Virus record (IMG/VR): IMGVR_UViG_3300046820_000088 | Location: 38,424 to 102,423 of that record | Length of the DNA: 64,000 nt | Reading direction: 5' to 3' (one strand) | Origin: a virus | Part shown: positions 5,474 through 61,743 of the stretch, in pieces | How the letters are laid out: the number at the start of each line of letters is the position of its first letter | How positions within the stretch are numbered: the stretch's first letter is position 1 | Notes under the pieces: generated by a model | What the model was told of the DNA's origin: nothing | What the model saw: the letters and a program-made list of their open reading frames with translations, nothing else | The model's database searches: none | Made by a program: the position numbers and the translations under genes

Positions 5474-6702
5474 TCCCAGTTATCCTTATTAGGTCTTGGG
5501 TTATCTTTGTGAGACCAGATTTTGTCTATCTGACTATTTTCGCCACAGGTGTTTGCACAGAACATAAGTTTATTAGCACCTGTTTGATTCCAAGAATCGG
5601 CAAACACTCTGTTTAAGTGTCCTGCTTCTAATATTTCTTCTAAAGAATAGTTATTAAGATTAAAATATTGATTGCCGTAATCCTGTAGTTTTTTCTTTAG
5701 TTGTACGATTTCCGGAGTTGAATGTGTAGTTTCGATGTTAGTTCCGACATAGCAACACGGACTTACTCTTCCGGCTGAACTAACATATATTTCTCTACCG
5801 CCTCCCCAGGTTTCGGACTTGCATGAAATGTTTTTACAATCTGTATCTGTATAATCGATTTCGCGCTCTTTGAAAGATTTACCGTCAAACTTGTCAACAA
5901 GCTCGTTGTGCGGATCTAATACAGCATATTTGTAAAACTTGATTACTGATGGTTCAATATGGTCGAACCTTGGGATTGGATCTTTTGCAATATCGAAGTT
6001 TCTGTTATCAAGCTCAGTAGGTGGTTCTAACCAATACTTGAACTCTCCTTCTTTTCCTAGTGCTGCTACTTTGACTAGTTTTCCTTCGTTGTTAAATCCC
6101 AATGCTTTTTTAGGAGCAAAGGTTGCAAATCCAAGTTCTATGGATAAGTTCTTGGCTTCTTGGATCTGATGTTCGTTGTGACGAAATATTAAAAAGTCCC
6201 ACTCAGCCTTTCCTCCTGCATTAATAAATGCTTTGGAGTTTTTCATTAAAGTGTTCCAGTTTACATTTCTTCTGTAAAGATGGTTGGTATCTTCTAGACC
6301 ATCGATAGAAAATATAACTTTAAATCTTCGATTAAAACTGTTGGCTGAAAGATGTCCTAATCTAGTCCAATCCTTTTCTCCCCTCATCCCACCGTTAGTA
6401 TTAACAGTGATGTTAACCGTAGGATTGATTGTAAGAATGTGTTCAATGATATTGATAGCATCCTTTGCCATCATAGGATCACCGACAGTACCGCAGAATA
6501 TCCAATGATTAGTTTTCTTAACAATATCGTCAGAGAACCACTCTTTAAACTGTTCGAGAGTTATTTGATTTAACTCTATATCTGGTCGGAGTATTTCTGT
6601 GCCTTCGTAGTATCTAGGACATAGGGGACATGCAGCATTACAATAACTTGAAAGCTCGCAGTGTATTTGAAATAACTTTTCTTTAATCCAAAAATCTGTC
6701 AT
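5455..6702 (-). CDS. Radical SAM protein with C-terminal SPASM-type domain
   Basis: 415 aa. The radical SAM cluster motif is C21-x3-C25-x2-C28, followed by a (beta/alpha)6-type core. The C-terminal third has further cysteines, including SAGRVSPCCYVG and a final CANTC, the layout of SPASM auxiliary iron-sulphur domains. Such enzymes commonly modify peptides or proteins by radical chemistry; the substrate here is unknown. Last of four radical SAM genes on this strand, overlapping the previous by 4 nt and running into the convergent glycosyltransferase gene at its 3' end. Confidence 0.85.
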   Translation of the reverse strand: MTDFWIKEKLFQIHCELSSYCNAACPLCPRYYEGTEILRPDIELNQITLEQFKEWFSDDIVKKTNHWIFCGTVGDPMMAKDAINIIEHILTINPTVNITVNTNGGMRGEKDWTRLGHLSANSFNRRFKVIFSIDGLEDTNHLYRRNVNWNTLMKNSKAFINAGGKAEWDFLIFRHNEHQIQEAKNLSIELGFATFAPKKALGFNNEGKLVKVAALGKEGEFKYWLEPPTELDNRNFDIAKDPIPRFDHIEPSVIKFYKYAVLDPHNELVDKFDGKSFKEREIDYTDTDCKNISCKSETWGGGREIYVSSAGRVSPCCYVGTNIETTHSTPEIVQLKKKLQDYGNQYFNLNNYSLEEILEAGHLNRVFADSWNQTGANKLMFCANTCGENSQIDKIWSHKDNPRPNKDNWDQFIDN

Positions 6703-7874
6703 TTGTATTTTTTAATAAGTTCGCCGAACTCTTTGAATGTTTCGTAATAGTTTTCTTTTCGATAAGCATCATGTATATCGATCTGTTCTTTGAACTTATT
6801 CCAACGCCAGTCTGTAAATGTCCCGTCTTGAACAAACTTTATAATACCGGGAATCTGATGCCATTCTCTTTCAAACTTTTTATCGATGCTTTCTAGTTTT
6901 TTACATATTGCTTCTTTTATCTCATCTGGAAAGATATTAGAACAATAGTAGTCTGGATAGTGTACAAGATTTAGATATATATGCCAGTTTTCTTTTTCAA
7001 AGAATTCTAAAAACTCAGGCACATAGTAGACGTTCAATGCACTGATGGTATGACATATTCCGAATAAAATATTGTCTCGACCTTTAGCCCATTCTCTAGC
7101 TTTTTGCATATTTGCATATACTTCGTTCCACTTTGCAGGATGTCTCATAAATTCAAACTGTAGACCAATACCATCGATGCTGAAGCCAATATCGACAAAC
7201 TTGAAATGATCAAACAACTTAATATGTTCTTCATTCCATTGAGTTCCGTTGGTATTGTAGTGTAGAGTTTGATTCTTGCTCCAGCCGTTAGCTACAGACT
7301 TTTCAATAAACTCCCACTGCTGTTTTATAAGCCAAGGTTCTCCTCCGTAGAAATCTATTTGAATAACATCTTTACCGATGTCCTCTATTTCTGACCACAG
7401 CTTGCTTTCTTTTTCCCAGCTATCGTTATATATTTTAGCATTGATGAGATATTCTTTCTTTGGTAGCTTAACACCTTCGATCATTGTGTCGTAATATTCG
7501 TTAAGCCATAGGCTGCTGCTATATGGGTGACAAGTTCTGCATTTAATATTGCAGGTGTTGCCCATGTTTAGTTCTAGTGTTTTAATACCGTCTGTTTCTG
7601 CAAAGTCAAACTTTGCATTGTCTCGGATTCGTTTACTATCACGCCCGGCATCTTCTTCGTTCCAGCACTTAATACACGCAGGATGTCTTTCACCTTTTTT
7701 AAACGCCTCCCTAACATCTTCCATATAGGGATCTTTCCATAACTCTGTTAGTGTATGATCAACGACTCTATTTTTAGATGATCCGTCAATCATACAACAG
7801 TGTTTTATAGACCCCGTTGAATTTATGCTAAGATTATGAAATGCATTGACACAATAAAACTTTTTATTTTCCAT
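6699..7874 (-). CDS. Radical SAM protein with N-terminal twitch/SPASM-like cysteines
   Basis: 391 aa from ATG 7874; the longer frame to 7913 lacks a good ribosome site and would deepen the overlap with the upstream gene. The N-terminal 90 residues carry C8, C26-C27, C67 and C70 in the style of an auxiliary iron-sulphur (twitch/SPASM) module (STGSIKHCC, then CIKCWNEEDAG). The radical SAM motif C108-x3-C112-x2-C115 follows, then GGEPW. The auxiliary module therefore precedes the core, opposite to classical SPASM proteins. Overlaps the upstream gene by 11 nt and the next by 4 nt. Substrate unknown. Confidence 0.83.
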   Translation of the reverse strand: MENKKFYCVNAFHNLSINSTGSIKHCCMIDGSSKNRVVDHTLTELWKDPYMEDVREAFKKGERHPACIKCWNEEDAGRDSKRIRDNAKFDFAETDGIKTLELNMGNTCNIKCRTCHPYSSSLWLNEYYDTMIEGVKLPKKEYLINAKIYNDSWEKESKLWSEIEDIGKDVIQIDFYGGEPWLIKQQWEFIEKSVANGWSKNQTLHYNTNGTQWNEEHIKLFDHFKFVDIGFSIDGIGLQFEFMRHPAKWNEVYANMQKAREWAKGRDNILFGICHTISALNVYYVPEFLEFFEKENWHIYLNLVHYPDYYCSNIFPDEIKEAICKKLESIDKKFEREWHQIPGIIKFVQDGTFTDWRWNKFKEQIDIHDAYRKENYYETFKEFGELIKKYK

Positions 7875-9258
7875 AGTTCTCGTACTCTGTTTTACATATA
7901 GCCATAAACTCACTATACTCTGGAAATAGGGTGTGAAAGTCTGTTCCTAATCTTTTGTCGTTTTCTGTAAAGAAACTATAGAAGTCTCTGCGTCCTTGTT
8001 TAATCTTTTCGTCGCTGACTGGATTTTCTCTCATGTAATCTACTACACGCTTGAACACTTCGTACTCTAGTTCGTTAAATCCTACAGCTAGTCCATTAGA
8101 CATCATGTTGTCTTTGATAAACTGTAGATTATCTGACATGTACTGATTGAAGCTTTCTGGTAAGATATTGATCATCCAGTGTGGAGGTTCTTTTAAGTAC
8201 GGAGTATCGAACTGCACACGTTGATGCCACGGAGTTCCTGGATAGTCTCTTCTAAGTTCTAAGATCTTTTCCAACAGTGTTCTAAAGTTTGCAACTGTTA
8301 GTACATTAAAGGTAATCATAAAACTGATATCTTGTTGAGGAAGATTATCTAGATAGTATCTAAGATTCTTTTCCCAAAGAACAATGTCTAACCCAGTGCG
8401 AATATATTCGGCTTGTGGCCCCCAGGTGTCGATACTGGTATACAACTTAAACCCTTTGATGGCTTTTTTCTCTAATAACACCTTAACATGATCAACTAGT
8501 TTTTGTACAAGTCTGTGTGTTACTCCTAGATTACTGTTAAGATGAATTTCTAAGTGCGGACTAGGATCGTTTTCCAACATCTCTAACATCTTAAATGTAT
8601 TCGGATTCATCAACGGCTCTCCGCCTGTGATACGGAACACACGTAGATCTTTCTTAAGACTAGGCCACCATTCCCAGAATGCATCTACATAGGGATTGGG
8701 GTCATCTTTATTAAAAAATTCGCTGTAATTTAAAAAATCGATACCATACTGATTGTATGTTAGATCGTAGTTGCCGTGTCTCTTTACTTCTTCCATCCAA
8801 CTACTAGATGCCTGAGGGCAGCAATATCCACATCTAAAGTTACAACCGTTTCCGAAACTAACTTCGAGATGTCTAGGATTCCAATCGGCTTCCCAACCAC
8901 CGGCAACAATATCGTCGATTGTAGAGTCGATATAGTTAGAACTGTGCTTCATGCGATCACTAATATGCTCGCCCGGCAAGTCTTCAATATTCCAGCAATA
9001 ATAACATTCTTGAGGTCTGCCACCCTCCATCATTTCTTTACGTTGTTGTTTTTTCCAAGGTGTATTATGTAATGCACTAGGATTGTCTTTCAGCAACGTT
9101 TTGTCAATTTTGTGTGGCCGTGGATGATAGCAGCTATGATTATCTCCCATGTGAAGATATAGCGTTTCCATATTCCATTTTGCTAGACAAAATCCTTTGC
9201 CTACTTTGTTTAACTGGTCTCGTGTATCCTGTATAATCTCGATGTATTTTCTTGTCAT
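7864..9258 (-). CDS. Radical SAM protein, paralogue of the next upstream gene
   Basis: 464 aa. N-terminal module: C24 in FCLAKW, C43 in HSCYHP, C85 and C88 in CYYCWNIED. Radical SAM core: C139-x3-C143-x2-C146, then TGGEPL, the SAM-binding GGE motif. The order and spacing match the 539-aa protein encoded just upstream, so the two arose by duplication. The start ATG 9258 shares one base with the upstream stop. Probably works on the same kind of substrate as its paralogue; a phage protein or host factor is possible. Confidence 0.85.
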   Translation of the reverse strand: MTRKYIEIIQDTRDQLNKVGKGFCLAKWNMETLYLHMGDNHSCYHPRPHKIDKTLLKDNPSALHNTPWKKQQRKEMMEGGRPQECYYCWNIEDLPGEHISDRMKHSSNYIDSTIDDIVAGGWEADWNPRHLEVSFGNGCNFRCGYCCPQASSSWMEEVKRHGNYDLTYNQYGIDFLNYSEFFNKDDPNPYVDAFWEWWPSLKKDLRVFRITGGEPLMNPNTFKMLEMLENDPSPHLEIHLNSNLGVTHRLVQKLVDHVKVLLEKKAIKGFKLYTSIDTWGPQAEYIRTGLDIVLWEKNLRYYLDNLPQQDISFMITFNVLTVANFRTLLEKILELRRDYPGTPWHQRVQFDTPYLKEPPHWMINILPESFNQYMSDNLQFIKDNMMSNGLAVGFNELEYEVFKRVVDYMRENPVSDEKIKQGRRDFYSFFTENDKRLGTDFHTLFPEYSEFMAICKTEYENYGK

Positions 9259-10877
9259 TATTTTCCTAGATAGATATTTGGAAATGCTTTTTTAAAATCT
9301 GTTCCTCTTCGTTGATCGTGTTGTACAAAAAACTCAGATAGATTTTGAATATTAGTTTCTCTTATTTCAGCGGTGTATTTATTTTCTTCTATTAGCGCGA
9401 TGTTTCTTTTCAACTTCTCAACCTCGTAGGGTTTAAATCCAGTTAAAGATTTTTGATATATGTTTTCGTTGCAGTGTGTTTCCATCCATGTAAGTACTCC
9501 TTTCAAATGCTCTATATCTTTATCAGTAGCATTAAAAATATTAAGCCATTGGGGATTTCTTAATACTGGAATATCAAACCATACTCGTTGAAATGGTCTT
9601 ATTTTATATTTCATTTGAGCTAATACTGACCATTCTTTTCTCAACTGAAGAATCATTTCTAAGTATTCTTTTATATTAGGTATACTTAAAAGATTGAATG
9701 TATTGATAAAACTCACGCTGGTATTTCTGGTCTTACTTAAGAATGTTCTAGTATTTGTCAACATTCTATCAAAGTCAAGACCATTGCGTATATATTCGGC
9801 CTGCTCGCCTACGCTATCAACACTTACATAAAGTGTAAAATGTTTACAGGCTTTATCATTGTATTTGTAAAGATAAGTGAAGCTACCATCTTCAAGAGCG
9901 TGACCTATTACTGGAAATGTTTGAGGAATATCGAATCGTTCAATACTAGGAAGATCGCTGTTGTGATATTCTTTAGAGTCTTTACCGATGATAAAATGCT
10001 TCCACGAAGTCCAATCGCTTCCGTCTTTAGGATCAGGAACATAGCATTCTGCAGAATGTTCTACAGTATCTAATGCTTTAACTTTATCTACAAACTTATC
10101 AAACAGTTCCTGCTTCGGAGGGCACATGTTACTAGTAATGCTTAATTCTAGATTTTTATTAGGATTATCTTTTACGTAGTCTAGAACCTTAAAGGTATTT
10201 GCATCTAGCAAAGGTTCGCCGCCAGTCATGCGAAATACTTTGAGATTGGCGTATATGTCCGGCCACCATTTCCAGAAAGCTTCAACATAGGGATTATCTT
10301 TGTTTGCAAGACCGATTGGCATCAATCCAACATTTTTTAGAACAGCAATATTATTGTGTTCTTCTTTTCCTATGTTATAGGGACCGTATATTTCGATTTC
10401 GTTTTGCCATTCACTACTTAGGTGAGGACTACAGTAACTACATTTAAAGTTACATGTTTGATTGAAGTTTACTTCAACGTAAGTTGGCTTGACGTTAAAG
10501 TCAAACGGCTGACTGACAATCTCGTCGATTTTATCAACAGCCCAATGTTCGCTACTTCTGTAATATCTATCGCTAACGTGCCCGGCATCTTCAATCTTCC
10601 AGCAGTAATCACACCCTGTAGGTCGTTGACCTTCGAGCATCATTTTTCGTTCTTCGAACTTTTGATAGGTATTATGTAATGCACCAGGATCTAACTTTAG
10701 CTGATCTAAGTTAATCTGATGTGTGGGAGGGTGATAGCAACTATGTGTGCGACCATTAGTTAGATGCAAACTAACTTGAAGCCATTTGGCCGCACAGAAG
10801 CTCGGGCTTATACTGTCTATATGAGATTTTGATGAATCAAAACCTTTAACGTAAAAGTTGACTTTTTTTGTTTCCAC
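9258..10877 (-). CDS. Radical SAM protein, longest of the quartet
   Basis: 539 aa. N-terminal cysteines: C28 (FCAAKW), C47 (HSCYHP), C89 and C92 (CDYCWKIED). Radical SAM motif C142-x3-C146-x2-C149, then TGGEPL. Compared with its 464-aa paralogue it has an insert of roughly 70 residues in the middle of the core (around residues 270-340). First gene of the four-gene radical SAM run; it starts one base after the stop of a small unknown gene. Radical SAM proteins of this layout occur in aquatic T4-like phages but I know of no assigned function. Confidence 0.85.
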   Translation of the reverse strand: METKKVNFYVKGFDSSKSHIDSISPSFCAAKWLQVSLHLTNGRTHSCYHPPTHQINLDQLKLDPGALHNTYQKFEERKMMLEGQRPTGCDYCWKIEDAGHVSDRYYRSSEHWAVDKIDEIVSQPFDFNVKPTYVEVNFNQTCNFKCSYCSPHLSSEWQNEIEIYGPYNIGKEEHNNIAVLKNVGLMPIGLANKDNPYVEAFWKWWPDIYANLKVFRMTGGEPLLDANTFKVLDYVKDNPNKNLELSITSNMCPPKQELFDKFVDKVKALDTVEHSAECYVPDPKDGSDWTSWKHFIIGKDSKEYHNSDLPSIERFDIPQTFPVIGHALEDGSFTYLYKYNDKACKHFTLYVSVDSVGEQAEYIRNGLDFDRMLTNTRTFLSKTRNTSVSFINTFNLLSIPNIKEYLEMILQLRKEWSVLAQMKYKIRPFQRVWFDIPVLRNPQWLNIFNATDKDIEHLKGVLTWMETHCNENIYQKSLTGFKPYEVEKLKRNIALIEENKYTAEIRETNIQNLSEFFVQHDQRRGTDFKKAFPNIYLGK

Positions 10878-27988: not shown

Positions 27989-29002
27989 TTACTTTTTAGA
28001 TTCGCTTAGTACGTCAAACATTTCAAACTGACCACCCATGCGCTCGTATACCATACCTGCATAGACTTCTGCCTTCATGCTTTCTGTAAACTTGCTTTGA
28101 GCAACTCTTGTGGCCCAGTCAAACAAATCTTTGTCTAATGGATCGATAGCTTGTTGTCCGCCGCTTTCTACAACTAACTTCATCATTTCTTTAAAAGTTA
28201 GTTTTTGTTCAACACTTTCTTTAACTGGACGCTTCTTGCCCTTTGGCATCATTTTGCTTTCGTCTTTTTTCTTTTCCCCACCTAGTACCTTGTCGCGTCC
28301 AGTGAAGTAATCGTAATCGTCTTTATCATTTCCACTAGATGGCATATTTTTGCCTTTGTTAGCCGCGTGGAACGCAGCATTCTTCTCGGCAGTTGTTGCT
28401 GGCTTCTTCTTTCCTAGACCAACGGCATTCTTTACAGTGTCTATAACACCTTCAGTTTTCTTGCCGCCAACGGCCTTACTAACTGCGGCACGACGATTCT
28501 TTAGATAGTCGTCCGTCTTATCTTTCTTACCATCGTTGTTAACATCGTCGTCTTCTTTGCCAACTGGATCCATTGCTTCTTCCATTTTCTTTTTCTTGGC
28601 ATCGGCTTTTTTCTTGTCTTCTTTTTCAGTTTTCTTAGCTTCGACCATCTTCATGAACTTGGACTTAAACTGTGGCTCAATACTTTCGTCTTTCTTTTTG
28701 GCTTTCTTTTCTTCAGAATCAGCTTCGTCGCCTTTGTACTTGTCGCCCTTGACAGCCATACCAGGATGCTTTTTACCTGACTTATCGGTCCAAGGCTTGT
28801 CTGTTTTTTCAGCAGCTTCGTCTACTTTTTCTTCTGCTTCTGCTTTCTTTTTAGCTTCAGCAACATATGTAGAAGCTCCGCTAAGAACACGTAACTGTGC
28901 GTCTTCGTTTAGTTGAACAGCTTGCGGTAGCTTTGGAGCAGCTGGAGTAGCAACTGGCGGTTCCATGCTATCTAGTTTATTGAGTAGTGATTTGAAGTCC
29001 AT
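27989..29002 (-). CDS. Lys/Glu/Ala-rich internal-head-type protein (337 aa)
   Basis: Low-complexity basic-acidic protein: Lys/Glu runs at about 75-165, then a globular, helical C-terminus ([14 protein letters not shown], then [16 protein letters not shown]). No enzymatic motif. It opens the set of neighbouring proteins (27989-33452) that look like prohead core or injected proteins. The start [13 protein letters not shown] is helical but not an exact MR..E tag. Late octamer upstream (29035-29042). Family not recognised. Confidence 0.65.
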
Positions 29003-29034: not shown

Positions 29035-29042
29035 TATTTATC
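29035..29042 (-). promoter_or_regulatory. Late-type octamer GATAAATA
   Basis: Minus-strand GATAAATA overlaps the stop-codon end of the upstream gene (29038). With a 5-base gap the start would be 29029, giving a 26-nt leader with AAGGA and AGGAAT sites before the ATG at 29002. One mismatch from the T4 octamer. Confidence 0.6.
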
Positions 29043-29283
29043 TTTTGAGTGCTACACCTGCACCAAATAAACTGACATTAGAATCTAATGCGTTTGTACC
29101 TGGTTTTTGCATTACTGGTTTTGGTTGCGGAGGAGATTTAGTTCCTGATTTTCCAGGACTTCCTATGTAGCTTTTCTTTCCTCTAGCAGGACCCGGGCTT
29201 AGGTGCGGATTAGGAACAGTAGCAATATTACCTGCTGAAGTTGCTCCTGCGCTAGCGGTTTCGAATAGTTCGTGTAATCTCAT
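29038..29283 (-). CDS. Small protein with MRLHELFE tag (81 aa)
   Basis: N-terminus MRLHELFETASAGATS looks like a capsid-targeting tag with an LFE-TA type cleavage site. The rest is Pro/Gly/Ser/Lys-rich and probably disordered, as in phage internal proteins. The ATG 29283 has no ribosome site; a GATAAATA octamer is placed so that the transcript would begin exactly at the ATG. No family recognised. Confidence 0.65.
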   Translation of the reverse strand: MRLHELFETASAGATSAGNIATVPNPHLSPGPARGKKSYIGSPGKSGTKSPPQPKPVMQKPGTNALDSNVSLFGAGVALKR

Positions 29284-29288
29284 GCTAA

Positions 29289-29296
29289 TATTTATC
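29289..29296 (-). promoter_or_regulatory. Late octamer for a leaderless transcript
   Basis: Minus-strand GATAAATA followed by the five bases TTAGC, so the T4-rule start is 29283, the A of the ATG itself. The gene has no Shine-Dalgarno site. The octamer overlaps the stop codon of the upstream GH19 gene. Confidence 0.55.
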
Positions 29297-30143
29297 GTAT
29301 TGCAACTTTAAAATCTTGGAACTTGTCTTGTCGTTGGTCCAAATGTTTTAATCCAGGATTAATGCCTTTTGTAACATCTTTGACATTATCAAAGTTTTTA
29401 ACTTTATTGCTGACTCTGTTTTGCCAGAACCAAACTGATGTTTTAGCGGCAATTTCTGGCCTTTCAACAAGTTCTGGATTTTGGACTAATCTGTTATCGC
29501 CAAATAAGGCTTTAGATGCCTCGGCATAGTTGTATTTGCCTGTTAGTTGAATGTAACCCCTACCAGAATATCTTGCTCCGTCGCCGGGCTTAGTATTACC
29601 TAATCGTTTGGCTTTTGCTGGAGCAAATCTAATATCGTATTTTTTAAAGTCTAGTTTGCCCCCTATTTCTTTCATGTGTTTGAAATCCATAGTTTCGTGA
29701 GCACACTGACTTAAGAAGGCTGCAAGTTCTTGCCCTTTTATTCCTGCTTTCTCTGCTGTTTTTCTTAACAAAACTTCGTGCGGATTGCCTGTTACAGATT
29801 TTTCTATTTCTTTTTTACTAATCTGTTTTAAGGGATCAACTTTCTTAACGTCTTGTTTAACTTGTTGAACAACGGCTGGTTTTTCTGTAGGTTTCTTTTT
29901 GGCTGCTTCTGCATCTCCAGAAGCTCCTAGTGCGGCTGCACCCATAGCAGCACCTGCTACCCAATCTTTCCAACCTTCTTGTTCGATACTTTCGCTTCCG
30001 CCTTCCCCGACAGATTCCCCGCCATCACCACTATATCCAGCATAGTATCCGTATCCGCCGTAAGGACCTGGACCATATGCTGCCCAACGAGGTTTACGTT
30101 TCTTTTTTCTTTTTCTTTCTGAAACAAACTCGTGAGCTCTCAT
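29292..30143 (-). CDS. Virion-type GH19 lysozyme with MRAHEFVSE tag
   Basis: 283 aa. N-terminal tag MRAHEFVSE, then a basic RKRKKKRKPR run, a Gly/Tyr-rich part and a hydrophobic stretch AAMGAAALGASGDA. The C-terminal 170 residues are a GH19 chitinase-like domain: QCAHETMDFKHMKE with the catalytic Glu, RYSGRGYIQLTGKYNY, and an SVWFWQNR helix. GH19 lysozymes cleave glycosidic bonds in peptidoglycan. The tag suggests packaging in the head or virion for entry, whereas a separate GH19 endolysin lies at 40341. Confidence 0.78.
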   Translation of the reverse strand: MRAHEFVSERKRKKKRKPRWAAYGPGPYGGYGYYAGYSGDGGESVGEGGSESIEQEGWKDWVAGAAMGAAALGASGDAEAAKKKPTEKPAVVQQVKQDVKKVDPLKQISKKEIEKSVTGNPHEVLLRKTAEKAGIKGQELAAFLSQCAHETMDFKHMKEIGGKLDFKKYDIRFAPAKAKRLGNTKPGDGARYSGRGYIQLTGKYNYAEASKALFGDNRLVQNPELVERPEIAAKTSVWFWQNRVSNKVKNFDNVKDVTKGINPGLKHLDQRQDKFQDFKVAIR

Positions 30144-30334
30144 TTCTTTTTACCTGATTTCATGTTTGCACACCAGTGTGCCATGCGTGCTTTTTCACCA
30201 GAGCTATTTTTAGCAGTTTTTCTTAGACTACTAACGCTAGCCTTACAATTTACTCCACTGCGTTTGGCCAAACCTTTGCGACCTGGCTTTTTGCCGTCAG
30301 CAAAGTTTTCGATGATAAACTCGCTTGCTCTCAT
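30140..30334 (-). CDS. Small basic protein with MRASEFIIE tag (64 aa)
   Basis: Tag MRASEFIIENFADG, then a very basic stretch KKPGRKGLAKRSGVNCKASV with a Cys, ending SGKKK. The pattern GRKGLAKRS... resembles the basic segment also present in the 375-aa protein C-terminus, so the two could share a DNA-binding or processing function. Overlaps both neighbours by 4 nt. No family named. Confidence 0.6.
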   Translation of the reverse strand: MRASEFIIENFADGKKPGRKGLAKRSGVNCKASVSSLRKTAKNSSGEKARMAHWCANMKSGKKK

Positions 30335-30408
30335 ACTGGACTGTAGGGGTTGCGAAAACGATCATACCCGTCGTCTTCTGGATATACTGGATAATCATCT
30401 GGACCCAT
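30331..30408 (-). CDS. Possible 25-aa small protein
   Basis: ATG 30408 follows GGGGAGAAGAAAT, a strong ribosome site, and the stop overlaps the next ATG by 4 nt (ATGA), as elsewhere in this run. The product is acidic and Tyr/Pro-rich, starting MGPDDYPVYPEDDG. It overlaps the end of the upstream 98-aa gene by 14 nt. Too short for composition tests; the ribosome-site pattern is the evidence. Confidence 0.5.
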   Translation of the reverse strand: MGPDDYPVYPEDDGYDRFRNPYSPV

Positions 30409-30691
30409 ATTTCTTCTCCCCAGTAAGGTAAGGCTTACTAAACCATAACTGAAACCATTCCGGAGTTCCGGGTTTGATATTATGCTCTTTCTCGATCTTT
30501 TGGTTTTCCATTCCAGTAACACTGATATTGCTACCTTGATCCACTCGATATTCGTGTAGTCTAGCTGAATGCCCTAGACCTGCGAGATATTGAATAGATT
30601 TTAATTCGTAGATAGGATCACTTGGATCAAGGACACAGTCATCTGGGCTGTCTTGATTTAAGTTTTCAGTAGTGATCTTATATTGCTTCAT
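30395..30691 (-). CDS. Unknown 98-aa protein
   Basis: Globular mixed composition: an N-terminal half with SPDDCVLDPSDPIYEL, then LAGLGHSARLHEYRVD, and a C-terminal KPGTPEWFQLWFSKPYLTG. The N-terminus is MKQYKITTEN and resembles a weak tag. Stop overlaps the 25-aa frame by 14 nt; the start shares one base with the previous stop. Family unknown, probably a phage head-associated protein by position. Confidence 0.6.
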   Translation of the reverse strand: MKQYKITTENLNQDSPDDCVLDPSDPIYELKSIQYLAGLGHSARLHEYRVDQGSNISVTGMENQKIEKEHNIKPGTPEWFQLWFSKPYLTGEKKYGSR

Positions 30692-31320
30692 TACATTCCA
30701 CCGCCGACTAGTTTTCCTTTTGGATAACCTTTAGGATCTTTTCCTTTAAGTTGTCCTGCTGGACCTTCTTTCTGACCAACTTTTTTTCCTGCAAATGGAA
30801 TATCGGCAGCTTCTTCAACACTGCCAAATCTAGATTCGTATTGCTCTTCGTCTCTAGCATCATCTAGTGCATAGTTAGCAAACTTGATTAAACTTTTTAA
30901 TGTTTTTTCGATATTATAAACTGCACCATTAGCTGCTCTAATCGCTTGAACAGCTTCTTCAATAGAATCGGTCATGTCAACTTTGGCGCTATCGTCCGCA
31001 ATACTGTTAATGCCTTCCATCATAGAAGTAAGCTCGTCTTCAATAGCTTCGAACTCGTAGTGATTTTTTTGTGCTTTAAGGACGGCAGGCATTAACTGTT
31101 CTAGTTGAGCAATCATAGATTCTATTTGCTGAACTTTGCTTCCCTGAGCGGCTTCTTCAGCAACGGCTTTTTGTTTGTGTTTTGTATCGCCTTGCTTCTG
31201 TGCTTTCTTTTTATCTTTATGTGCGCCAGCGCCGCCCATCTTTGCATTTTTAGCAACAAAGTTTCTTGGTTTTGATGCGTCGATCTTTTTAGATTCTGTA
31301 AGTATTTCTATTGCTCTCAT
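30691..31320 (-). CDS. Internal-head-type protein with MRAIEILTE tag (209 aa)
   Basis: Tag MRAIEILTESKK, then a Lys/Ala-rich basic part, then a long helical region (IESMIAQLEQLMPAVLKAQK, and more), ending with a Gly/Lys-rich tail. No enzyme motif. Prohead-core or injected protein by its tag and composition. Overlaps the next gene upstream (31317) by 4 nt. Similar tagged proteins occur in aquatic T4-like phages. Confidence 0.65.
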   Translation of the reverse strand: MRAIEILTESKKIDASKPRNFVAKNAKMGGAGAHKDKKKAQKQGDTKHKQKAVAEEAAQGSKVQQIESMIAQLEQLMPAVLKAQKNHYEFEAIEDELTSMMEGINSIADDSAKVDMTDSIEEAVQAIRAANGAVYNIEKTLKSLIKFANYALDDARDEEQYESRFGSVEEAADIPFAGKKVGQKEGPAGQLKGKDPKGYPKGKLVGGGM

Positions 31321-31997
31321 TTTGATTTCCTTGTTTGCTTTGGACCTTTCCTAGTCTTCCATTTCTTGTCGGTTGAACACCAGTAACGTCCGTAGCCTTC
31401 TTCTACAGTGTCTTTTACACCTAGACCTTGTTTAACAGCACTAAACAGCTTTTCTGCATGTTGTCCAGCACCTGTGGATTCTTTAAACTTTTCGAAGTCG
31501 TTATTTGCAGCAGCAGATCTAGCATTACTTGCACTAACACCAGACACTCCCTCGGCACCATCTTCTCTCTCGCCGCTGGATTTAAAATCTAATACTTCAA
31601 AGTTATAAAAACCGTGGCTCTTGCCTTCTACATTATTATAGTCTTTGAGTAGTTTAGACATTTCTTCGATACGATCGCTGCCTGCAACAAATGTAGCATT
31701 TCTGTAACCTAGATCGTGTAGATGACTTGCAACTTTAAGAACAGTATTAAGACTTGCATCGTCTACAATATTTTTGGCATGTTCGGGAAACATGGACTTC
31801 ATGAATCCTATTTTAGTAGAATAGTCCAGAGGATTTTTCTTTTTGTCTTGAGTTTGACTGAGAAATATTTTGTACTCTCCGCCGATACCTTTGAGAGTAT
31901 CTAGCAATAACTTATGACCTACCGTAGGAGGATTCATTCTACCGAAGCAGAATGAAACATGAGAGTTAGAAGATTCGAAAAGTTCACTGATCCTCAT
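31317..31997 (-). CDS. Nucleotidyltransferase-like protein with MRISELFES tag
   Basis: 226 aa from ATG 31997; two codons further upstream also read open. After the tag MRISELFESS the sequence has FCFGRMNPPTVGHKLLLDTL, with TVGH in place of the HxGH motif of cytidylyl- or adenylyltransferases, and a later SASNARSAA block in the place of the ISSTxIR motif. Family members join nucleotides to phosphate-bearing substrates (for example NMN or pantetheine phosphate). The N-terminal tag suggests it is packaged or membrane-targeted, which is unusual for this enzyme class. Confidence 0.65.
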   Translation of the reverse strand: MRISELFESSNSHVSFCFGRMNPPTVGHKLLLDTLKGIGGEYKIFLSQTQDKKKNPLDYSTKIGFMKSMFPEHAKNIVDDASLNTVLKVASHLHDLGYRNATFVAGSDRIEEMSKLLKDYNNVEGKSHGFYNFEVLDFKSSGEREDGAEGVSGVSASNARSAAANNDFEKFKESTGAGQHAEKLFSAVKQGLGVKDTVEEGYGRYWCSTDKKWKTRKGPKQTRKSK

Positions 31998-32325
31998 AGT
32001 CACCGTTTGACATATGTTTTTCTTGTTCTTCTGCGATCTTTTTCGCTAGCTCGATAAGTCCCTCTTTAGAAAACTTATTTTCTTTTTCATCTATTTCAAA
32101 TTTTGAGCAATACTGTTCTACACACTGTTCAAGAGGTCTGATATAGAGTTTAAATGCACTTGGATTACCTTTGTACTCTTTATGTTTTTTAACAGCAGGA
32201 AAGAATACATTGGTTAGAAGTTTATCATCATTGTCGATGAAAAACTTCAAATCTCCCATCCAGTCAACGTCTGATTTTTCTTCAGTTGGCGCACCGATGG
32301 GGCTAAACATTTCTCTTAATAGCAT
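31984..32325 (-). CDS. Unknown 113-aa protein
   Basis: Starts MLLREMFSPIG, a loose variant of the tag found in neighbours, then a helical acidic domain with two Cys (QCVEQYC). Overlaps the upstream gene by 1 nt and the next by 14 nt. Family unknown; probably head-associated by location. Confidence 0.6.
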   Translation of the reverse strand: MLLREMFSPIGAPTEEKSDVDWMGDLKFFIDNDDKLLTNVFFPAVKKHKEYKGNPSAFKLYIRPLEQCVEQYCSKFEIDEKENKFSKEGLIELAKKIAEEQEKHMSNGDYEDQ

Positions 32326-33452
32326 TACCAGCTCCTACAAGACCAGTAACGTGCTTTCCAACGTGGTCCTGGATTTTTACAGTTATGGCGAGCACGGAAA
32401 GATTTTCTACGTGCTGGATTTGATTTCTTAATACGCATTTTCTTATCGCCAAAGTTTACCTTGACAATCTTGCCGTTGGGCTTGCGTACATATACTTTTG
32501 ATTTCTTTACATCGCCTGGTAGTTTTTTACCTAGCGGAACATTCTTGCCATGATACTCGGCTTCGTCTACATTTTCGTCATAGTTGTTGGCTTTCATGTA
32601 GTCTCTAGCAGTATCGATGTAATCCATAGCCTTGGTGATTTTAGATTGAACCCACTCTGGTAAATTGTCGTCTGTATCTAAAATGTCATATAACTCTTGA
32701 GCAGCATCGTTAATGGTACGTAGATCGTCTTTGGCCATGTCGCCTTCGTTATCGTACTCTGCATAGTTTTCTGGATCTTCTGGATTCTCAGAATGATCTT
32801 CTTTCTTAAACTTGTCTTTAATTTTGCCTAGCTCTTCTTCTGAAGCACCATCACGTCCGGCCTGTGCTAGTGCAGACATGCCGTCTTTACCGTATTTCTT
32901 TTTACCTGTGTAGTATTGCAAACCACTTTCGTCAAGATCTTCGCCAATCTTTTCGCAGTCGTTTACACGTTTGCCAGCATTTTTACCTGTTCCGGGCTTT
33001 GTGCCTACTTTACGATAACCTTTCCAGCAGCTCTTTGGTCCTGCTACGCCTTCTACAAGTTCACCTTCTAAGAAACTTAATCCTTCGTTGGTTAACATTT
33101 CCATAGCTGCATCGTCTAGATCAATAACAATCCCGTCAGCAACAAATCCTACGATCTCTGTTGATATTTCTAAATCTTCAGAGAAGCTAATACCAAAGTC
33201 GTCTCCAACTACAAACGTACTTTCGTTAGCGGTATCTTTACCAGCAAGTCCTTTCTTTCCGTAGTTGATTTCGTAATCGTCGTCTGTCGGCTCCATATTG
33301 GTCTTAACTCCGCTAGGACTAACATGTTCTTTTTCTTTATCTGCAATAGCTTTTTTGATTACAGGGTCTTGGGCAGCAGGCATCTTTTTTAGATCCTGCA
33401 AGGTGGCTTCTTCTGATAGAATTTTGTCCAGTTTAGATATAATGTCTCTCAT
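32325..33452 (-). CDS. Large tagged protein with basic C-terminal domain (375 aa)
   Basis: Starts MRDIISKLDKILSE, tag-like. The N-terminal half is acidic, with a cysteine-containing CWKGYRKVGTKPGTGKNAGK segment near 145-165; the last 40 residues are strongly basic with two Cys (SFRARHNCKNPGPRW, then YWSCRSW), like DNA-binding or core-protein tails. Likely an internal head or scaffold-like protein. Its start is inside a hairpin overlapped by a late octamer (33450-33484), so late-only synthesis is expected. Confidence 0.65.
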   Translation of the reverse strand: MRDIISKLDKILSEEATLQDLKKMPAAQDPVIKKAIADKEKEHVSPSGVKTNMEPTDDDYEINYGKKGLAGKDTANESTFVVGDDFGISFSEDLEISTEIVGFVADGIVIDLDDAAMEMLTNEGLSFLEGELVEGVAGPKSCWKGYRKVGTKPGTGKNAGKRVNDCEKIGEDLDESGLQYYTGKKKYGKDGMSALAQAGRDGASEEELGKIKDKFKKEDHSENPEDPENYAEYDNEGDMAKDDLRTINDAAQELYDILDTDDNLPEWVQSKITKAMDYIDTARDYMKANNYDENVDEAEYHGKNVPLGKKLPGDVKKSKVYVRKPNGKIVKVNFGDKKMRIKKSNPARRKSFRARHNCKNPGPRWKARYWSCRSW

Positions 33453-33856: not shown

Positions 33857-34534
33857 CTATTTATCGACTAAAACATAATTATAAACTCGGCCCATAACTT
33901 CTGGGTTTCGCAGTTTCAGCAATAATAACGTTTTATCGTCCTCAACTAGCACATATCTTCTATCCCAGTTCCAATCAGTAGCCATAAACCAGTGCTGAAT
34001 AGCTGGAGTGCAGGTTATTTTATCACCTTGACCTAAAATCCATTCTAGATATTTGGTTTTGCTCTCTGGATCTTTTGCTAGTTTATGTGGTAAAAGAAAG
34101 ACCTTGTGTCGGTATTTCTTATGCGGAAACTTCTTAACCAGTATAACTTCTTCATTTTCGAGACTGTCTATAGTGTTAACTGCTGGTTCATATTGATGAA
34201 CTACTATAGATTGAAACTTTGAAGATAGCTCTAGGTAGAAATCTCGATCATTTGTATAGAAATCAACACATTTACTTTCGATTCGTTTGGTCCATGTATT
34301 AGAATCTTTGCTTAACAAGAACTCTGTAAGATCATGTATTGAATCTCGATTAAACCATGCCTTATAGTGCATAGAATAGGGTTGATAATATGCACCCGTA
34401 TTAGACAAACAAAACTTTTTAATCTCTTCAAGAGGCAGCAATCGAAAGATTCCCGCCCCTTGAATGATTAATGTTGTTTTATAAAGCCACTTATTGTAAA
34501 ACTTACGGTTAGTTACCTTCGTTTTCTGTGACAT
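33857..34534 (-). CDS. Unknown 225-aa protein
   Basis: ATG 34534 with AAGGAAAC upstream; a longer frame to 34558 is open. Basic N-terminal part (VTNRKFYNKWLYKTTLIIQG) and a Trp-containing core (FMATDWNWDRRYVLVEDD). It overlaps the end of the clpA-like gene by 26 nt, so it is translated after it. I do not recognise the family. The basic start could bind nucleic acid, but no motif shows it. Confidence 0.6.
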   Translation of the reverse strand: MSQKTKVTNRKFYNKWLYKTTLIIQGAGIFRLLPLEEIKKFCLSNTGAYYQPYSMHYKAWFNRDSIHDLTEFLLSKDSNTWTKRIESKCVDFYTNDRDFYLELSSKFQSIVVHQYEPAVNTIDSLENEEVILVKKFPHKKYRHKVFLLPHKLAKDPESKTKYLEWILGQGDKITCTPAIQHWFMATDWNWDRRYVLVEDDKTLLLLKLRNPEVMGRVYNYVLVDK

Positions 34535-36854
34535 CAACGGTTGTTTCCTTCTCAGCATTGGCCTTCTTAAGGGCTTTACGCTCTTCTTTGGTCAACGGTT
34601 TGGGCATATCTTCTACAGTAAATGCCAGCTCGTTATTTACAACAGACACTGTAACACGACCGCCATTGACTAGATCACCAAACAATACTCGGCGGCTTAG
34701 TGGACTCTTGATGTTGTTATCGATCATTCGAGCAAGTGGTCTCGCACCCATCTTGCTGTCGTATCCTTTTTCTGATAACCATTTTAGTGCATCAGCATCA
34801 GCAACGATTTCGATGTTTTTGTCCTTGAGCTGCGAGTTAAGTTCGTTGATAAACTTTTTCACAATCTGAACAACTACCTCTTCACCCAACTTACGGAACT
34901 TGATAACAGCGTCTAAGCGATTACGAAACTCTGGTGCAAAAAACTTTTTAATAGCTTTGTCATCCTCACCGTCTTTACCTAGATCACCAAAGCCGATAGT
35001 ATTCTTTTCGTTATCGGCAGCTCCTAAGTTACTGGTCATGATCAAGATAGTGTTGCGACCATCGGCCTGCTTTCCATTTGATCCTGTTACAAAACCGTTA
35101 TCCATGAACTGCAACAAGATATTCGAAACATCTGGATGTGCTTTTTCAATCTCGTCTAACAACAGAATACTGTTAGGATGCTCTTGTAACTTTGTGATCA
35201 GTTGTCCTGCATTATCTTCGTATCCAACATAACCAGGAGGAGAACCAATCAGTTTTGCTACGCTGTGTTTTTCTTGATACTCACTCATATCGAATCTGAT
35301 TAGATTCATACCCATCTTTTCAGACAATGCACGAGCTGTTTCAGTCTTACCGCAACCTGTTGGGCCGAGGAATAAGAAACTGCCGATTGGTTTATTTGGA
35401 TGCTTCATGCCAGCTTGTGCTACAAAGATCTTATCTAGCAATGTATCTACAGCAGTATCTTGACCGTAGACAGCAGTCTTCATACCTTTTTCAAGCTCTG
35501 CAAGATTCTTAGATTCTTTCTGAGCAACAGCCTCCAACGGCATATTGATCATCTTGCTAAGTTCGTAAGTAATCTGCTCGATGTCGACAATCTGTTCAAC
35601 ACCCTCCATACCTTCTTCATCTTTGACTTTGTATCGTGCAGATGCACAGTCGATAATGTCAATAGCCTTGTCGGGCAACTTTTTATCTGCCATATATTTG
35701 ACAGATAGTTTAACTGCCTGCTCAATAGCACCGTCGGTAATCTTAACGTTATGATGTTTCTCGTAATACTTTTTAAGACCTTTGATGATCTTTACAGTCA
35801 TTTCTGAACTTGGCTCGTCAACTGTAACACGTTGGAATCGACGCATTAGAGCACGATCCTTTTCAAAGTGCTTGCGATACTCTTCCCATGTTGTTGAAGC
35901 AATCAGTTTCAGAACACCTTTTGTCAACATAGGTTTAAGCATATTGCTCATATCGTTGCTGGATTGATTGGCAGCACCTGCACCTTGCATCATATGAGCT
36001 TCGTCGATAAACAGGATGATCTTGCCTTTCTTTTCAAGTGCAGCAAGAACCGCTTTTAGACGTTCTTCAAAATCACCACGATATTTACTGCCTGCAAGCA
36101 ATGCACTAATGTCTAGTGTGTAAACTTGATGATCCTGAATAAACTTAGGAACTTTCTTTTCAAAGATTTTACGTGCAAGGCCTTCTGCGATAGCAGTTTT
36201 ACCGACACCTGGATCACCAACTAGCAATACGTTTGACTTGTTGCGACGAGCAAGTACTAGTTGAATCTTTTCTAGTTCTTCGTCACGACCGATAACTGGA
36301 TCGATCTGACGTTGTTTAGCTCTAAGACTAAGGTTAGTACAGAACTGATTCAATACTCGTTCGATTTGATTAGAGTTTGCAACTTGAGCAGGAACTTGTT
36401 CCTCGTCATCTGACTCTTCCACTTGCATATTTTCTTGGAAGTATTTGACAAACTTTTCTTTAGATAGTCCGCCTTTAGTAAGGAAGTAGTAACTAAAGCT
36501 GTTCTTTTCACTCAAGATGCTAATAATAACATCGGCGATTTCAATACGCTGTCTGCCACTAAACAGTACCTGTGTAAATGCACGATTCAATGCACGTTCG
36601 ATAGAGTTTGTTTTCTTGGGCTTTGCGCCAGAATCTGTTACAATATCTGCCAGATTATTTTTTAGATAATGATCGAGATTTGATTTAATAAAGTTAGCAT
36701 CTGCTCCGAAGCTTTCTACAAACGAGTAAGATTCTTCGTGACACATAATACTATATGTCAGATGCTCGATAGTAATGTATTCGTGCTTCAGATCTTTTGC
36801 AACACCAATGGCGTGTTCAAAGATTGAATGTAACGTGCTGCTAGGTTCGATCAT
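34509..36854 (-). CDS. clpA: ClpA-like AAA+ unfoldase
   Basis: 781 aa, close to E. coli ClpA (758). N-terminal Clp-repeat domain (about 1-145), then AAA-1 with Walker A GDPGVGKT (213-220) and Walker B ILFIDEAH (280-287), and AAA-2 with GPTGCGKT (497-504) and LLLDEIEKAHPD. An IGF tripeptide at 620-622 fits the ClpP-binding loop (IGL in ClpA, IGF in ClpX). No ClpP gene is in the window, so it would dock host ClpP. Coupled to the deformylase upstream (shares one base). Its role in the infection is unknown. Confidence 0.9.
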   Translation of the reverse strand: MIEPSSTLHSIFEHAIGVAKDLKHEYITIEHLTYSIMCHEESYSFVESFGADANFIKSNLDHYLKNNLADIVTDSGAKPKKTNSIERALNRAFTQVLFSGRQRIEIADVIISILSEKNSFSYYFLTKGGLSKEKFVKYFQENMQVEESDDEEQVPAQVANSNQIERVLNQFCTNLSLRAKQRQIDPVIGRDEELEKIQLVLARRNKSNVLLVGDPGVGKTAIAEGLARKIFEKKVPKFIQDHQVYTLDISALLAGSKYRGDFEERLKAVLAALEKKGKIILFIDEAHMMQGAGAANQSSNDMSNMLKPMLTKGVLKLIASTTWEEYRKHFEKDRALMRRFQRVTVDEPSSEMTVKIIKGLKKYYEKHHNVKITDGAIEQAVKLSVKYMADKKLPDKAIDIIDCASARYKVKDEEGMEGVEQIVDIEQITYELSKMINMPLEAVAQKESKNLAELEKGMKTAVYGQDTAVDTLLDKIFVAQAGMKHPNKPIGSFLFLGPTGCGKTETARALSEKMGMNLIRFDMSEYQEKHSVAKLIGSPPGYVGYEDNAGQLITKLQEHPNSILLLDEIEKAHPDVSNILLQFMDNGFVTGSNGKQADGRNTILIMTSNLGAADNEKNTIGFGDLGKDGEDDKAIKKFFAPEFRNRLDAVIKFRKLGEEVVVQIVKKFINELNSQLKDKNIEIVADADALKWLSEKGYDSKMGARPLARMIDNNIKSPLSRRVLFGDLVNGGRVTVSVVNNELAFTVEDMPKPLTKEERKALKKANAEKETTVDVTENEGN

Positions 36855-37348
36855 TATTTCTTTTTCCTTAGTTTCTTCATTGCTAATTGTAACTTTAACG
36901 GTGATACTTTGTCAACAAAACACACGCCGTTAAGGTGATCTAGCTCATGCTGAAAGCACTTTGCTAGATATCCGTCTACACGAATTTCTTTGAGATTGCC
37001 CTTGCTGTCTTGATATTCAGCAACAATCCAGCTTGGCCTCTTTAGTTTTAAGTAAAGATCCGGATAGCTTAAACATCCTTCTTCATCAAGCACCTCTTCT
37101 GTGCTTGACTCTTTAATCACGGGATTGAATACAGCAAAGGGCTCTGGGAAGCCTTCAAGGTTTCGACTGCCCATTACAAAGACTCTACGAGCAATACCGA
37201 TTTGATTTGCTGCTAGTCCTATGCCTCTGTTCGTTTCCATGAATGAAATCATGTCTGCTTCTAGTTGAGCAGCATCCCCGTCTGTTTCGAAGTTCCAGGG
37301 CTCGCTAACTTCGACAAGGGTATTGTGTGGTCCTAGTTTAAAATCCAT
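36854..37348 (-). CDS. def: Peptide deformylase
   Basis: 164 aa. All three motifs of the family are intact: GIGLAANQ (42-49), EGCLS (90-94) and QHELDH (133-138), whose Cys and two His bind the iron and whose Glu is catalytic. The enzyme removes formyl from new proteins; phage versions are common in marine T4-like phages. It lies between dnaJ and clpA, sharing 1 and 11 nt with them, so the three form a protein-quality operon. Confidence 0.95.
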   Translation of the reverse strand: MDFKLGPHNTLVEVSEPWNFETDGDAAQLEADMISFMETNRGIGLAANQIGIARRVFVMGSRNLEGFPEPFAVFNPVIKESSTEEVLDEEGCLSYPDLYLKLKRPSWIVAEYQDSKGNLKEIRVDGYLAKCFQHELDHLNGVCFVDKVSPLKLQLAMKKLRKKK

Positions 37349-38165
37349 CTTTTATTTTTTTGATTTGGTCTTTTTGCTCTTGTGTGAGATTCTTAGGAAT
37401 AGACACTTTAACTCTAACTAACAGATTTCCTCTCTGTCTAGTACGCATATCCGGCAAGCCTTCTCCTTTACAACTAAGGACAGTGTCTGGCTGAGTGCCT
37501 GAAGGAATAGTTATATTTAAAGTTCTCTTGTCGATGTTGTCAATCTCTATTTTAGATCCTAACAGTGCATCCCATGCAGAGATAGTAGTTTCGTATATTA
37601 AAGAACTACCTTCTCTTCTAAAAGTTCTATGAGGTCTTACAATAACATTAACAATGAGATCACCTGGGCGAAGATCGCTAATCGAATCATCCCCCATTCC
37701 TGTATATTTGATCTGTTGACCCGATTCTATTCCGGGTGGAATAGCAATGTTAACTACTTTAGTTTTACCGCCAGGGATTCCAACTTCTGCGCTGATGTCC
37801 TTGCCATTGAGTACATCTTCTAGAGTTATCTCTATATTAACACTTAGGCTTCTGTTTCTTCTAGCAGGTCTTCCAAACCCAAAGTTGCCAAAGATATCTT
37901 CGAAGTTTCCTGAGTTAAAGTGAAACTCAAATGGTCCCTGACCAAACCCATGATGACCTGGTTGTGCATTTGGATCGCCACCCATGTCAATGATACGTTT
38001 CTTTTCGGGATTTGACAGTGACTCGTATGCTGTTGAAATCTCTTTAAACTTTTGTTCATCGCCCCCACGATCGGGGTGATGTTTCATTGCAAGACTACGG
38101 TATGCCTTTTTTATTTCAGCGTCAGACGCACCTCTTTGTAAACCTAATGTAGAATAGTAATCCAT
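37338..38165 (-). CDS. dnaJ: DnaJ-like co-chaperone without zinc fingers
   Basis: 275 aa. A J domain (about 1-65) with YYSTLGLQRGASDAEIKKAY and the HPD motif in KHHPDRGGDE, then a Gly/Phe-rich linker (about 68-100) and two C-terminal substrate-binding domains. The CxxCxGxG zinc-finger region of type I DnaJ is missing, so it is like CbpA (type II). It stimulates host DnaK. A sigma-70 promoter with TATAAT 6 bases before the ATG drives it, so the transcript is leaderless or nearly so. No ribosome site is visible. Confidence 0.9.
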   Translation of the reverse strand: MDYYSTLGLQRGASDAEIKKAYRSLAMKHHPDRGGDEQKFKEISTAYESLSNPEKKRIIDMGGDPNAQPGHHGFGQGPFEFHFNSGNFEDIFGNFGFGRPARRNRSLSVNIEITLEDVLNGKDISAEVGIPGGKTKVVNIAIPPGIESGQQIKYTGMGDDSISDLRPGDLIVNVIVRPHRTFRREGSSLIYETTISAWDALLGSKIEIDNIDKRTLNITIPSGTQPDTVLSCKGEGLPDMRTRQRGNLLVRVKVSIPKNLTQEQKDQIKKIKDGF

Positions 38166-46546: not shown

Positions 46547-46786
46547 TTAAGACTTTAAAATCTTAATTATACGCTTTTGTTCTAGGTCTTTCAACCATGC
46601 ATCTTCCATTTCTCCGAAGTTTGGAGACTTCTCTAGTTCTCTATCTAAAACTTCTTTGATTAGATACAGGTCTTGTTTGCAGCCCCATTGGGTAAATCCG
46701 TCGTTGTATGAGCTGTTAGTTTCACGAGAGATACTGCGAATAGCATTCGCAATATCCCCAATGTCCCAGTTTTTTCTAAAGCCCAT
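46547..46786 (-). CDS. Unknown 79-aa protein
   Basis: Helical, Trp and Asp-rich (FTQWGCKQDLYLIKEVLD), starting in coupling with the GroES-like gene stop (TAATG). I recall this type as a conserved small protein in T4-like aquatic phages. Function unknown. Confidence 0.6.
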   Translation of the reverse strand: MGFRKNWDIGDIANAIRSISRETNSSYNDGFTQWGCKQDLYLIKEVLDRELEKSPNFGEMEDAWLKDLEQKRIIKILKS

Positions 46787-47181
46787 TACCTTGCACCAAA
46801 ATCCTCGGGACGGACTGTAATACTATCTCCGTTCTTAATTTCATTGCCTATATAGAAATCATTGGGCTCTTCGTCTGTTACTGCTAAAATAGCATTGACA
46901 TCGACTCTTTGTACTACTTTTGTGCCAGACCCGTCATCAATAGTGATTCCCCTGGTCCATCGTCCGTGTTCTACTAAAATCCATTGTCCAACATTAACAT
47001 CTTTTTGGTCAGGGCCTATACAATAGACCTTACCCCATCTAGGTTTAATACCGTGAGATTTTGCATTGTCACTTTGCACTACAATGCCACTAGCAGTTTT
47101 CATTTCTCCAAACTCCATGTCAGTGATGATAACATGGTCGTGCAGAGCTCGAATCTTGATATGCTTTACGTTGTAGGACAT
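46786..47181 (-). CDS. GroES/gp31-like co-chaperonin
   Basis: 131 aa. IKIRALHDHVIITDMEFGE matches the GroES start (IRPLHDRVIV), then a mobile-loop-like GEMKTASGIVV in the position of the GroES loop, and RWGKVYCIGP ... VNVGQWILV ... VNAILAV in the later strands. Longer than E. coli GroES (97) because of a 30-residue tail. T4 gp31 replaces GroES for folding the capsid protein; the role here is the same by analogy, needing host GroEL. Confidence 0.8.
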   Translation of the reverse strand: MSYNVKHIKIRALHDHVIITDMEFGEMKTASGIVVQSDNAKSHGIKPRWGKVYCIGPDQKDVNVGQWILVEHGRWTRGITIDDGSGTKVVQRVDVNAILAVTDEEPNDFYIGNEIKNGDSITVRPEDFGAR

Positions 47182-61455: not shown

Positions 61456-61743
61456 ATGTTCTTAAAAACAGAAATAGAGCAGTCAGAGTATACCCGTACC
61501 AGCAAAAACAACTTACAGCACACTTATAAGCGTTCTAAGACGGTGGCTGTGTTTCGTTGTGACAACTGTGATGCAGAGTTTAGGCGAGAGTTAAAGAAAG
61601 TACATCGTAAGAGATTGAGCAATAACTATTTTCATGTTTGCTCAAACTGTGATGCAAAGAGATTTGCCCAACGTAAGGGTGTTGAGCGGAAGCAGATATG
61701 GGATTTACCCGCTAGTGTTACTCTTCCTGTGGGGAAGTATTAA
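61456..61743 (+). CDS. Zinc-ribbon-type protein (95 aa)
   Basis: FRCDNCDAEF and HVCSNCDAKR form a CxxC...CxxC zinc site; the flanks are basic (YKRSKTVAVF, KKVHRKRLSNN). A DNA- or RNA-binding regulator is plausible. It has no ribosome site before ATG but a TGTAAATA octamer. It converges on the ACP gene with a 26-nt overlap. Confidence 0.7.
   Translation: MFLKTEIEQSEYTRTSKNNLQHTYKRSKTVAVFRCDNCDAEFRRELKKVHRKRLSNNYFHVCSNCDAKRFAQRKGVERKQIWDLPASVTLPVGKY

Follow-up and report, generated by a model that had tools for sequence, protein, structure and literature searches.

We have analysed a 64,000-nucleotide stretch (the window, whose numbering is used throughout) of the IMG/VR virus record IMGVR_UViG_3300046820_000088, and observed that five of the eight minus-strand genes between 29038 and 33452 begin with similar peptides of eight or nine residues: MRLHELFE, MRAHEFVSE, MRASEFIIE, MRAIEILTE and MRISELFE. 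We consider it very likely that these N-terminal tags are capsid-targeting propeptides of the kind known from phage T4, which would dock proteins on the prohead core, be removed by a gp21-type protease and leave a cargo that is retained and goes out with the DNA. The first 8-9 residues would attach to the scaffold core while the prohead is growing and take the protein in with them; during head maturation the protease would cut behind the terminal Glu of a hydrophobic-x-Glu sequence; and the cargo would stay in the head until it exits with the DNA at infection. Two enzymes are among the putative cargo, a nucleotidyltransferase that belongs to the NMNAT/cytidylyltransferase superfamily and one of the GH19 type; the other members are small, mostly basic proteins, and that of 81 amino acids (aa) also copies the N-terminal arm of the capsid protein. 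Core binding, cleavage and injection are what we infer; the basic character predicted for several cargo proteins would fit packaging together with DNA. The record that contains the window has 102,423 bases and is itself a fragment. Its source is an uncultured T4-like aquatic phage, and its B-family polymerase has its nearest counterparts in the T4-like jumbo phages Phosso of Sinorhizobium (51%) and Atu_ph07 of Agrobacterium (46%).

A common N-terminal peptide on unrelated proteins

All five MR..E starts listed in a preliminary description of this sequence were found where it placed them, on the minus strand, with ATG codons at 29283, 30143, 30334, 31320 and 31997. In order of position, and with a slash for the predicted cut, the tagged products are the 81-aa protein (29038..29283; MRLHELFE/TASAGATSAGNIATV..., tag codons 29260-29283); a GH19 protein of the chitinase/endolysin type (29292..30143; MRAHEFVSE/RKRKKKRKPRWAAYGPGPYGGYG..., tag codons 30117-30143); a basic 64-aa protein (30140..30334; MRASEFIIE/NFADGKKPGRKGLAKRSGVN..., tag codons 30308-30334), in which a module designated NFADG directly follows the tag Glu; a 209-aa protein (30691..31320; MRAIEILTE/SKKIDASKPRNFVAKN..., tag codons 31294-31320); and a cytidylyltransferase/NMNAT-like protein (31317..31997; MRISELFE/SSNSHVSFCFGRMNPPTVGH..., tag codons 31974-31997), for which an alternative GTG start at 32003, two codons upstream, would give MTMRISELFE.

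The preliminary description had the tag on unrelated proteins, a lysozyme and a nucleotidyltransferase among them, and profile searches agreed. By its matches to PF00182 (E 8.5e-14; 52.3 bits against a cut-off of 25.5) and phrog_181 (E 7.6e-40), and with its HET and GRGYIQLTG motifs kept, the product of 29292..30143 is a predicted member of the GH19 lysozyme/chitinase family; 12 of its 14 distinct relatives are tagged. That of 31317..31997 matches phrog_3041 (E 1.5e-50) and contains the sequence FGRMNPPTVGH, and on this basis it is a predicted member of the phage NMNAT/cytidylyltransferase family; it scores under the cut-off of the Pfam CTP_transf_like profile. The remaining three tagged proteins gave no useful family matches in profile searches. 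Tags could in principle be alike through recent duplication of genes with an N-terminus in common, and some tagged proteins do have an RWAAYGPG linker or the NFADG module in common. However, nothing visible beyond the tag is common to the cytidylyltransferase, the GH19 domain and the 81-aa protein, the tag variants differ by family, and the conserved Glu precedes different modules; we reject duplication as highly improbable.

A search of the whole record for other such starts, which the preliminary description had proposed, returned five ATG starts of the form MR..E[FILMV], all in this cluster. Composition alone would give 0.0009 tags per gene, or about 0.1 per record, and the chance that eight adjacent genes include at least five is about 4e-14, or about 4e-12 once position is corrected for. 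We extended the comparison to 94 related loci with 2,118 open reading frames (ORFs), collected by IMG/VR scans with the cytidylyltransferase and the GH19 protein. There, R..E[FILMVY] began at residue 2 in 133 of the 2,118 ORFs, compared with 0-5 at other offsets and 26 at one offset, and the tagged proteins fell into many unrelated groups. A short N-terminal peptide common to otherwise unrelated proteins, which is one mark of a capsid-targeting sequence (CTS), is what was found.

One constant element of the tag is its end. Counting distinct sequences only, hydrophobic-x-Glu ending at residue 7-11 was present in 52/52 cytidylyltransferases, 42/42 proteins of the 81-aa type, 37/38 of those that carry the RWAAYGPG linker and 10/10 of those with NFADG directly after the tag, against 14% of the other ORFs, and in relatives this Glu is followed almost without exception by A, S, R, K, D, T, N or G. 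Besides the terminal Glu, an acidic residue or Gln followed by a hydrophobic one at residues 5-6 is constant. The arginine of the MR..E tag proposed earlier proved less constant, being K in relatives and L in those of the cytidylyltransferase; variants follow the families, as MKI.E(I/L)LE, M(L/R)L.ELFE and MRA.EF(I/V).E. Two of the "looser forms" of the tag that had been noted on other proteins proved not to be tags with a cleavage site. The 113-aa product of 31984..32325 (minus strand) has a look-alike start, MLLREMFSPIG, that lacks Glu at the expected site, as does its whole family (MLLKEMFSPIG, 0/42), and the 375-aa product of 32325..33452 (minus strand) starts MRDIISKLD and is untagged, with the site in 0/37 members of the MRD.LSKLD family.

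We also considered whether the common start might be a nucleotide-level signal, for translation initiation or through overlapping-gene constraint, and not a peptide. The starts of two of the five genes overlap the gene before them by 4 bases (30140-30143 and 31317-31320), and codon 2 is mostly AGA and AAA. Yet the tag codons vary synonymously (AGA/AGG/CGA/CGT, AAA/AAG, GAA/GAG) and R/K and E/D interchange, which indicates selection on the peptide; the conserved Glu stands at residue 8-9, far past the start codon; the motif is absent from the other genes of the record; and cyanophages encode a similar peptide by different DNA. This explanation is largely refuted, and we give it hardly any credence.

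Prohead protease, head module and virion proteins in relatives

The T4 tag has the consensus MKTYQEFIAE. The first 10 residues of T4 IPIII are enough to direct foreign proteins to the inside of the prohead core, and cleavage by gp21 takes place behind L/I-X-E (PMC9026906, PMC10229621). Alt, which the preliminary description had offered as a further example of an MKTYQEF-type start, is a poor one, being cut at ITE-6 (PMC5694885).

Five relatives with a length of 110 kb or more were searched, and each has a gene of the T4 gp21 family (Peptidase_S77; E 1e-24 to 1e-25). The search for a gp21 protease suggested earlier thus succeeded in relatives, and not in the window's own fragmentary record; seven shorter records gave no such gene either. 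Around the protease gene the relatives have the order portal, core protein, protease, scaffold, capsid protein, which is that of T4; the portal, core and scaffold names were assigned from position and sequence, and the capsid protein is homologous to T4 gp23 (E about 1e-40). Tagged proteins adjoin this head module (MRINELLTESQ..., MRINEILTESQ...), and in a 280-kb relative, G002, further tag clusters lie at about 39-64 kb, 189-190 kb and 266-269 kb.

The tagged nucleotidyltransferase is 39% identical to homologues from the cyanophages S-CREM2 and S-SCSM1, which begin MKNFSSFLTE (gp154) and MKSFLQFLKE (ORF91), respectively. Both homologues were found in purified virions by mass spectrometry, and virion NMNAT/cytidylyltransferases were likewise reported for S-CBWM1 and S-SZBM1 (PMC10665884, PMC9602691). 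We applied a tag rule modelled on the T4 tag to all ORFs of S-CREM2 and S-SCSM1. In S-CREM2 it picked out 5/27 non-tail or unknown virion proteins (the SAM hydrolase, the kinase, the cytidylyltransferase, gp13 and gp136), 2/196 undetected ORFs and 0/23 canonical structural proteins; Fisher's test of 5/27 against 2/196 gives P 3e-4, a value that is indicative, since the rule was written after tagged examples had been seen and the undetected set consists of our own ORF calls. One further S-CREM2 protein, the virion-detected, Cas9-like gp12 (L121:7704-10313), carries RFASFMAEA, which resembles a tag, about 17 residues past its annotated start, and either that start may be misannotated or the tag may be internal.

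Several observations weigh against capsid targeting. The family of the 209-aa protein (SKPRNFVAKN) mostly lacks the Glu, the site being present in 8/39 members, most of which read MRAKDFIPAS. The window's record has no head genes because it is a fragment. In S-SCSM1 the tag rule applied to 1/20 non-structural virion proteins against 2/244, which is not significant, and one tagged protein went undetected in virion mass spectrometry. In Atu_ph07, a distant relative by its polymerase, no tagged genes were seen among the genes read beside a ClpA/DnaJ pair that also adjoins the tag cluster (see below). Finally, the authors of the virion studies caution that such enzymes could be co-purifying contaminants (PMC10665884, PMC9602691); that these enzymes have a targeting tag in common argues against contamination.

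A different reading would make the tagged proteins assembly factors, similar to core or scaffold proteins, that are docked and cut and then expelled or kept as structural parts, without any role as effectors in the host. In its favour, the tag has a protease site at its end, the head module has tagged genes beside it, the T4 core proteins gp22, gp67 and gp68 are themselves cut by gp21, and a small copy of the capsid arm would suit a structural role. However, the cargo includes enzymes with kept active-site motifs (GH19 and nucleotidyltransferase), and nucleotidyltransferase homologues are found in mature cyanophage virions; we regard a role confined to assembly as rather unlikely. Targeting of cargo to the capsid, as the preliminary description had it, gains support from the relatives' protease, the position of tagged proteins next to the head module and in other clusters, the likeness to the predicted capsid cleavage site described next, the detection of homologues in cyanophage virions, the association seen in S-CREM2 and the glutamate junctions described below.

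Capsid-arm copy and glutamate junctions

The capsid protein of relatives reads ...ENTRKYLAESATAGATSAGNVATLNRVILP and the 81-aa protein of the window reads MRLHELFETASAGATSAGNIATV. The two align with a score of 65, compared with 24 +/- 4 for shuffled sequences, none of 500 of which reached 65; the match covers residues 6-23 of the 81-aa protein (about 29215-29268, minus strand). Their predicted protease sites are also alike, LFE/TASAGATSAGNIATV in the 81-aa protein and LAE/SATAGATSAGNVATL in the capsid protein, LAE/S being the last hydrophobic-x-Glu before the conserved capsid fold and lying no more than about nine residues from the T4 site when the two proteins are aligned. In G002 the arm sequence occurs only in the capsid protein and the homologue of the 81-aa gene. 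Two small, virion-detected cyanophage proteins, S-SCSM1 ORF97 and S-CREM2 gp160, likewise carry a copy of the cyanophage capsid arm (AVGAGGFTGSSAAEGPTAGYDPLM compared with AVGSDGFQGGSADAGPTAGFDPVL). There is no similarity between the copies of the cyanophage lineage and those of the window's clade, and in both the mimic follows its own lineage's capsid. A lineage-matched copy of this kind gives a testable clue to the docking of internal proteins in the head. A tblastn search with the cyanophage capsid arm gave no matches, probably owing to low-complexity filtering.

Small-protein matches also fell on sequences that RefSeq labels "major head protein", at about 93166-93225 of NC_070962.1 (S-SCSM1) and about 117141-117176 of NC_070959.1 (S-N03). 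The S-SCSM1 entry is the 61-aa virion protein, which is probably wrongly named owing to its copy of the capsid N-arm; the S-N03 match could be the capsid gene itself.

Certain modules, namely NFADG, GVAGPK and DWQK, stand behind the tag Glu in some proteins and behind an internal one elsewhere, and our statements on junctions are based on these clear modules. At E/NFADGK the sequences upstream include GESIEHE, SGVGE, TYNVE, KEFEE and QANE, and a Glu, of the tag or internal, precedes NFADG at every relative junction listed. E/GVAGPKxCW follows GELVE, including in the 375-aa modular protein of the window (GELVE/GVAGPKSCW, residues 134/135, about 33050), and in relatives comes directly after a tag (MKVNEFIIE/GVAGPKKCW); E/DWQK is a further such junction. 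At these junctions, then, the Glu is constant and the sequence upstream of it variable. When all queries were pooled, Glu was found in 53/102 contexts, the rest being mostly out-of-register alignments or the tag itself. The GH19 protein has a possible internal site, ESIEQE/GWKD, near 29975. A general enrichment of [LIV].E[GASN] in tagged proteins was discarded as support, untagged proteins being enriched too; from that test only the G-following and V[AE]EG forms, with the junction comparison, were usable.

These sequence patterns suggest that the modular proteins may be polyproteins cut by the same protease; alternatively, the junction Glu could simply be part of the module. Tentatively, and at somewhat less than even confidence, we propose that this lineage has modular head polyproteins that would be cut at internal Glu into packaged peptides, along with a small protein anchored through its copy of the mature capsid N-arm.

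Known systems and surrounding genes

As with the CTS of T4 IPI-IPIII, the tag described here is an N-terminal peptide of about 10 residues with a hydrophobic-x-Glu end, carried by unrelated proteins, and relatives have an S77 protease and the T4 order of head genes. It differs from the T4 CTS in its consensus (MRA.EF(I/V).E and M.L.ELFE), in its cargo, in the possible internal sites and in the capsid-arm copy on one cargo. S-SCSM1 and S-CREM2 have in common with the window's clade a homologous NMNAT/cytidylyltransferase with a tagged N-terminus, although theirs is of a K/F type, MK.F..FL.E, and no targeting tag is mentioned in the available portions of the reports on their virions (PMC9602691, PMC10665884). 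In phiKZ and SPN3US, too, many head proteins are cut after Glu by a prohead protease and cargo is ejected into the host; the SPN3US inner head propeptides are mostly far longer, however, and the phiKZ motif is S/A-X-E. A full-text search of open-licence literature for "capsid targeting sequence" with "cyanophage" returned a T4 review only, and, as judged from titles and abstracts of that literature, such tags are undescribed in cyanophages or in this clade. As far as these sources extend, the principle is known from the T4 CTS, and the lineage, the type of tag, the cargo set, the capsid-arm mimic and the possible polyproteins are new. The tag offers a simple explanation for the puzzling, repeated presence of NMNAT-like enzymes in cyanophage virions (and, in S-CREM2, of the SAM hydrolase and kinase), and a sequence rule for head-targeted proteins would predict which unknown genes of T4-like aquatic phages are virion-borne and possible actors at the onset of infection.

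The run of genes that holds the tag cluster ends in an untagged neighbour of 337 aa (27989..29002, minus strand), which has weak PHROG similarities, including to the cytidyltransferase phrog_764. On the other side, a ClpA-like ATPase and a DnaJ-like protein (34509-36854 and 37338-38165) adjoin the cluster; Atu_ph07 has this pair too (gp292, gp293), in a region rich in virion proteins (CDS 284-329; PMC6102473). Elsewhere in the window we noted, by eye, four adjacent minus-strand ORFs at 5455-10877, one with a CxxxCxxC-type motif (CNAACPLC) and possibly radical-SAM-like; a GroES-like ORF at 46786-47181; and an acyl-carrier-protein-like ORF (GADSLDTVE) at 61718-61966. The segment 48675-61384 holds several very long ORFs, of up to 2,462 aa, three of which have a VNDNFxEL-type start in common and probably encode tail-fibre proteins.

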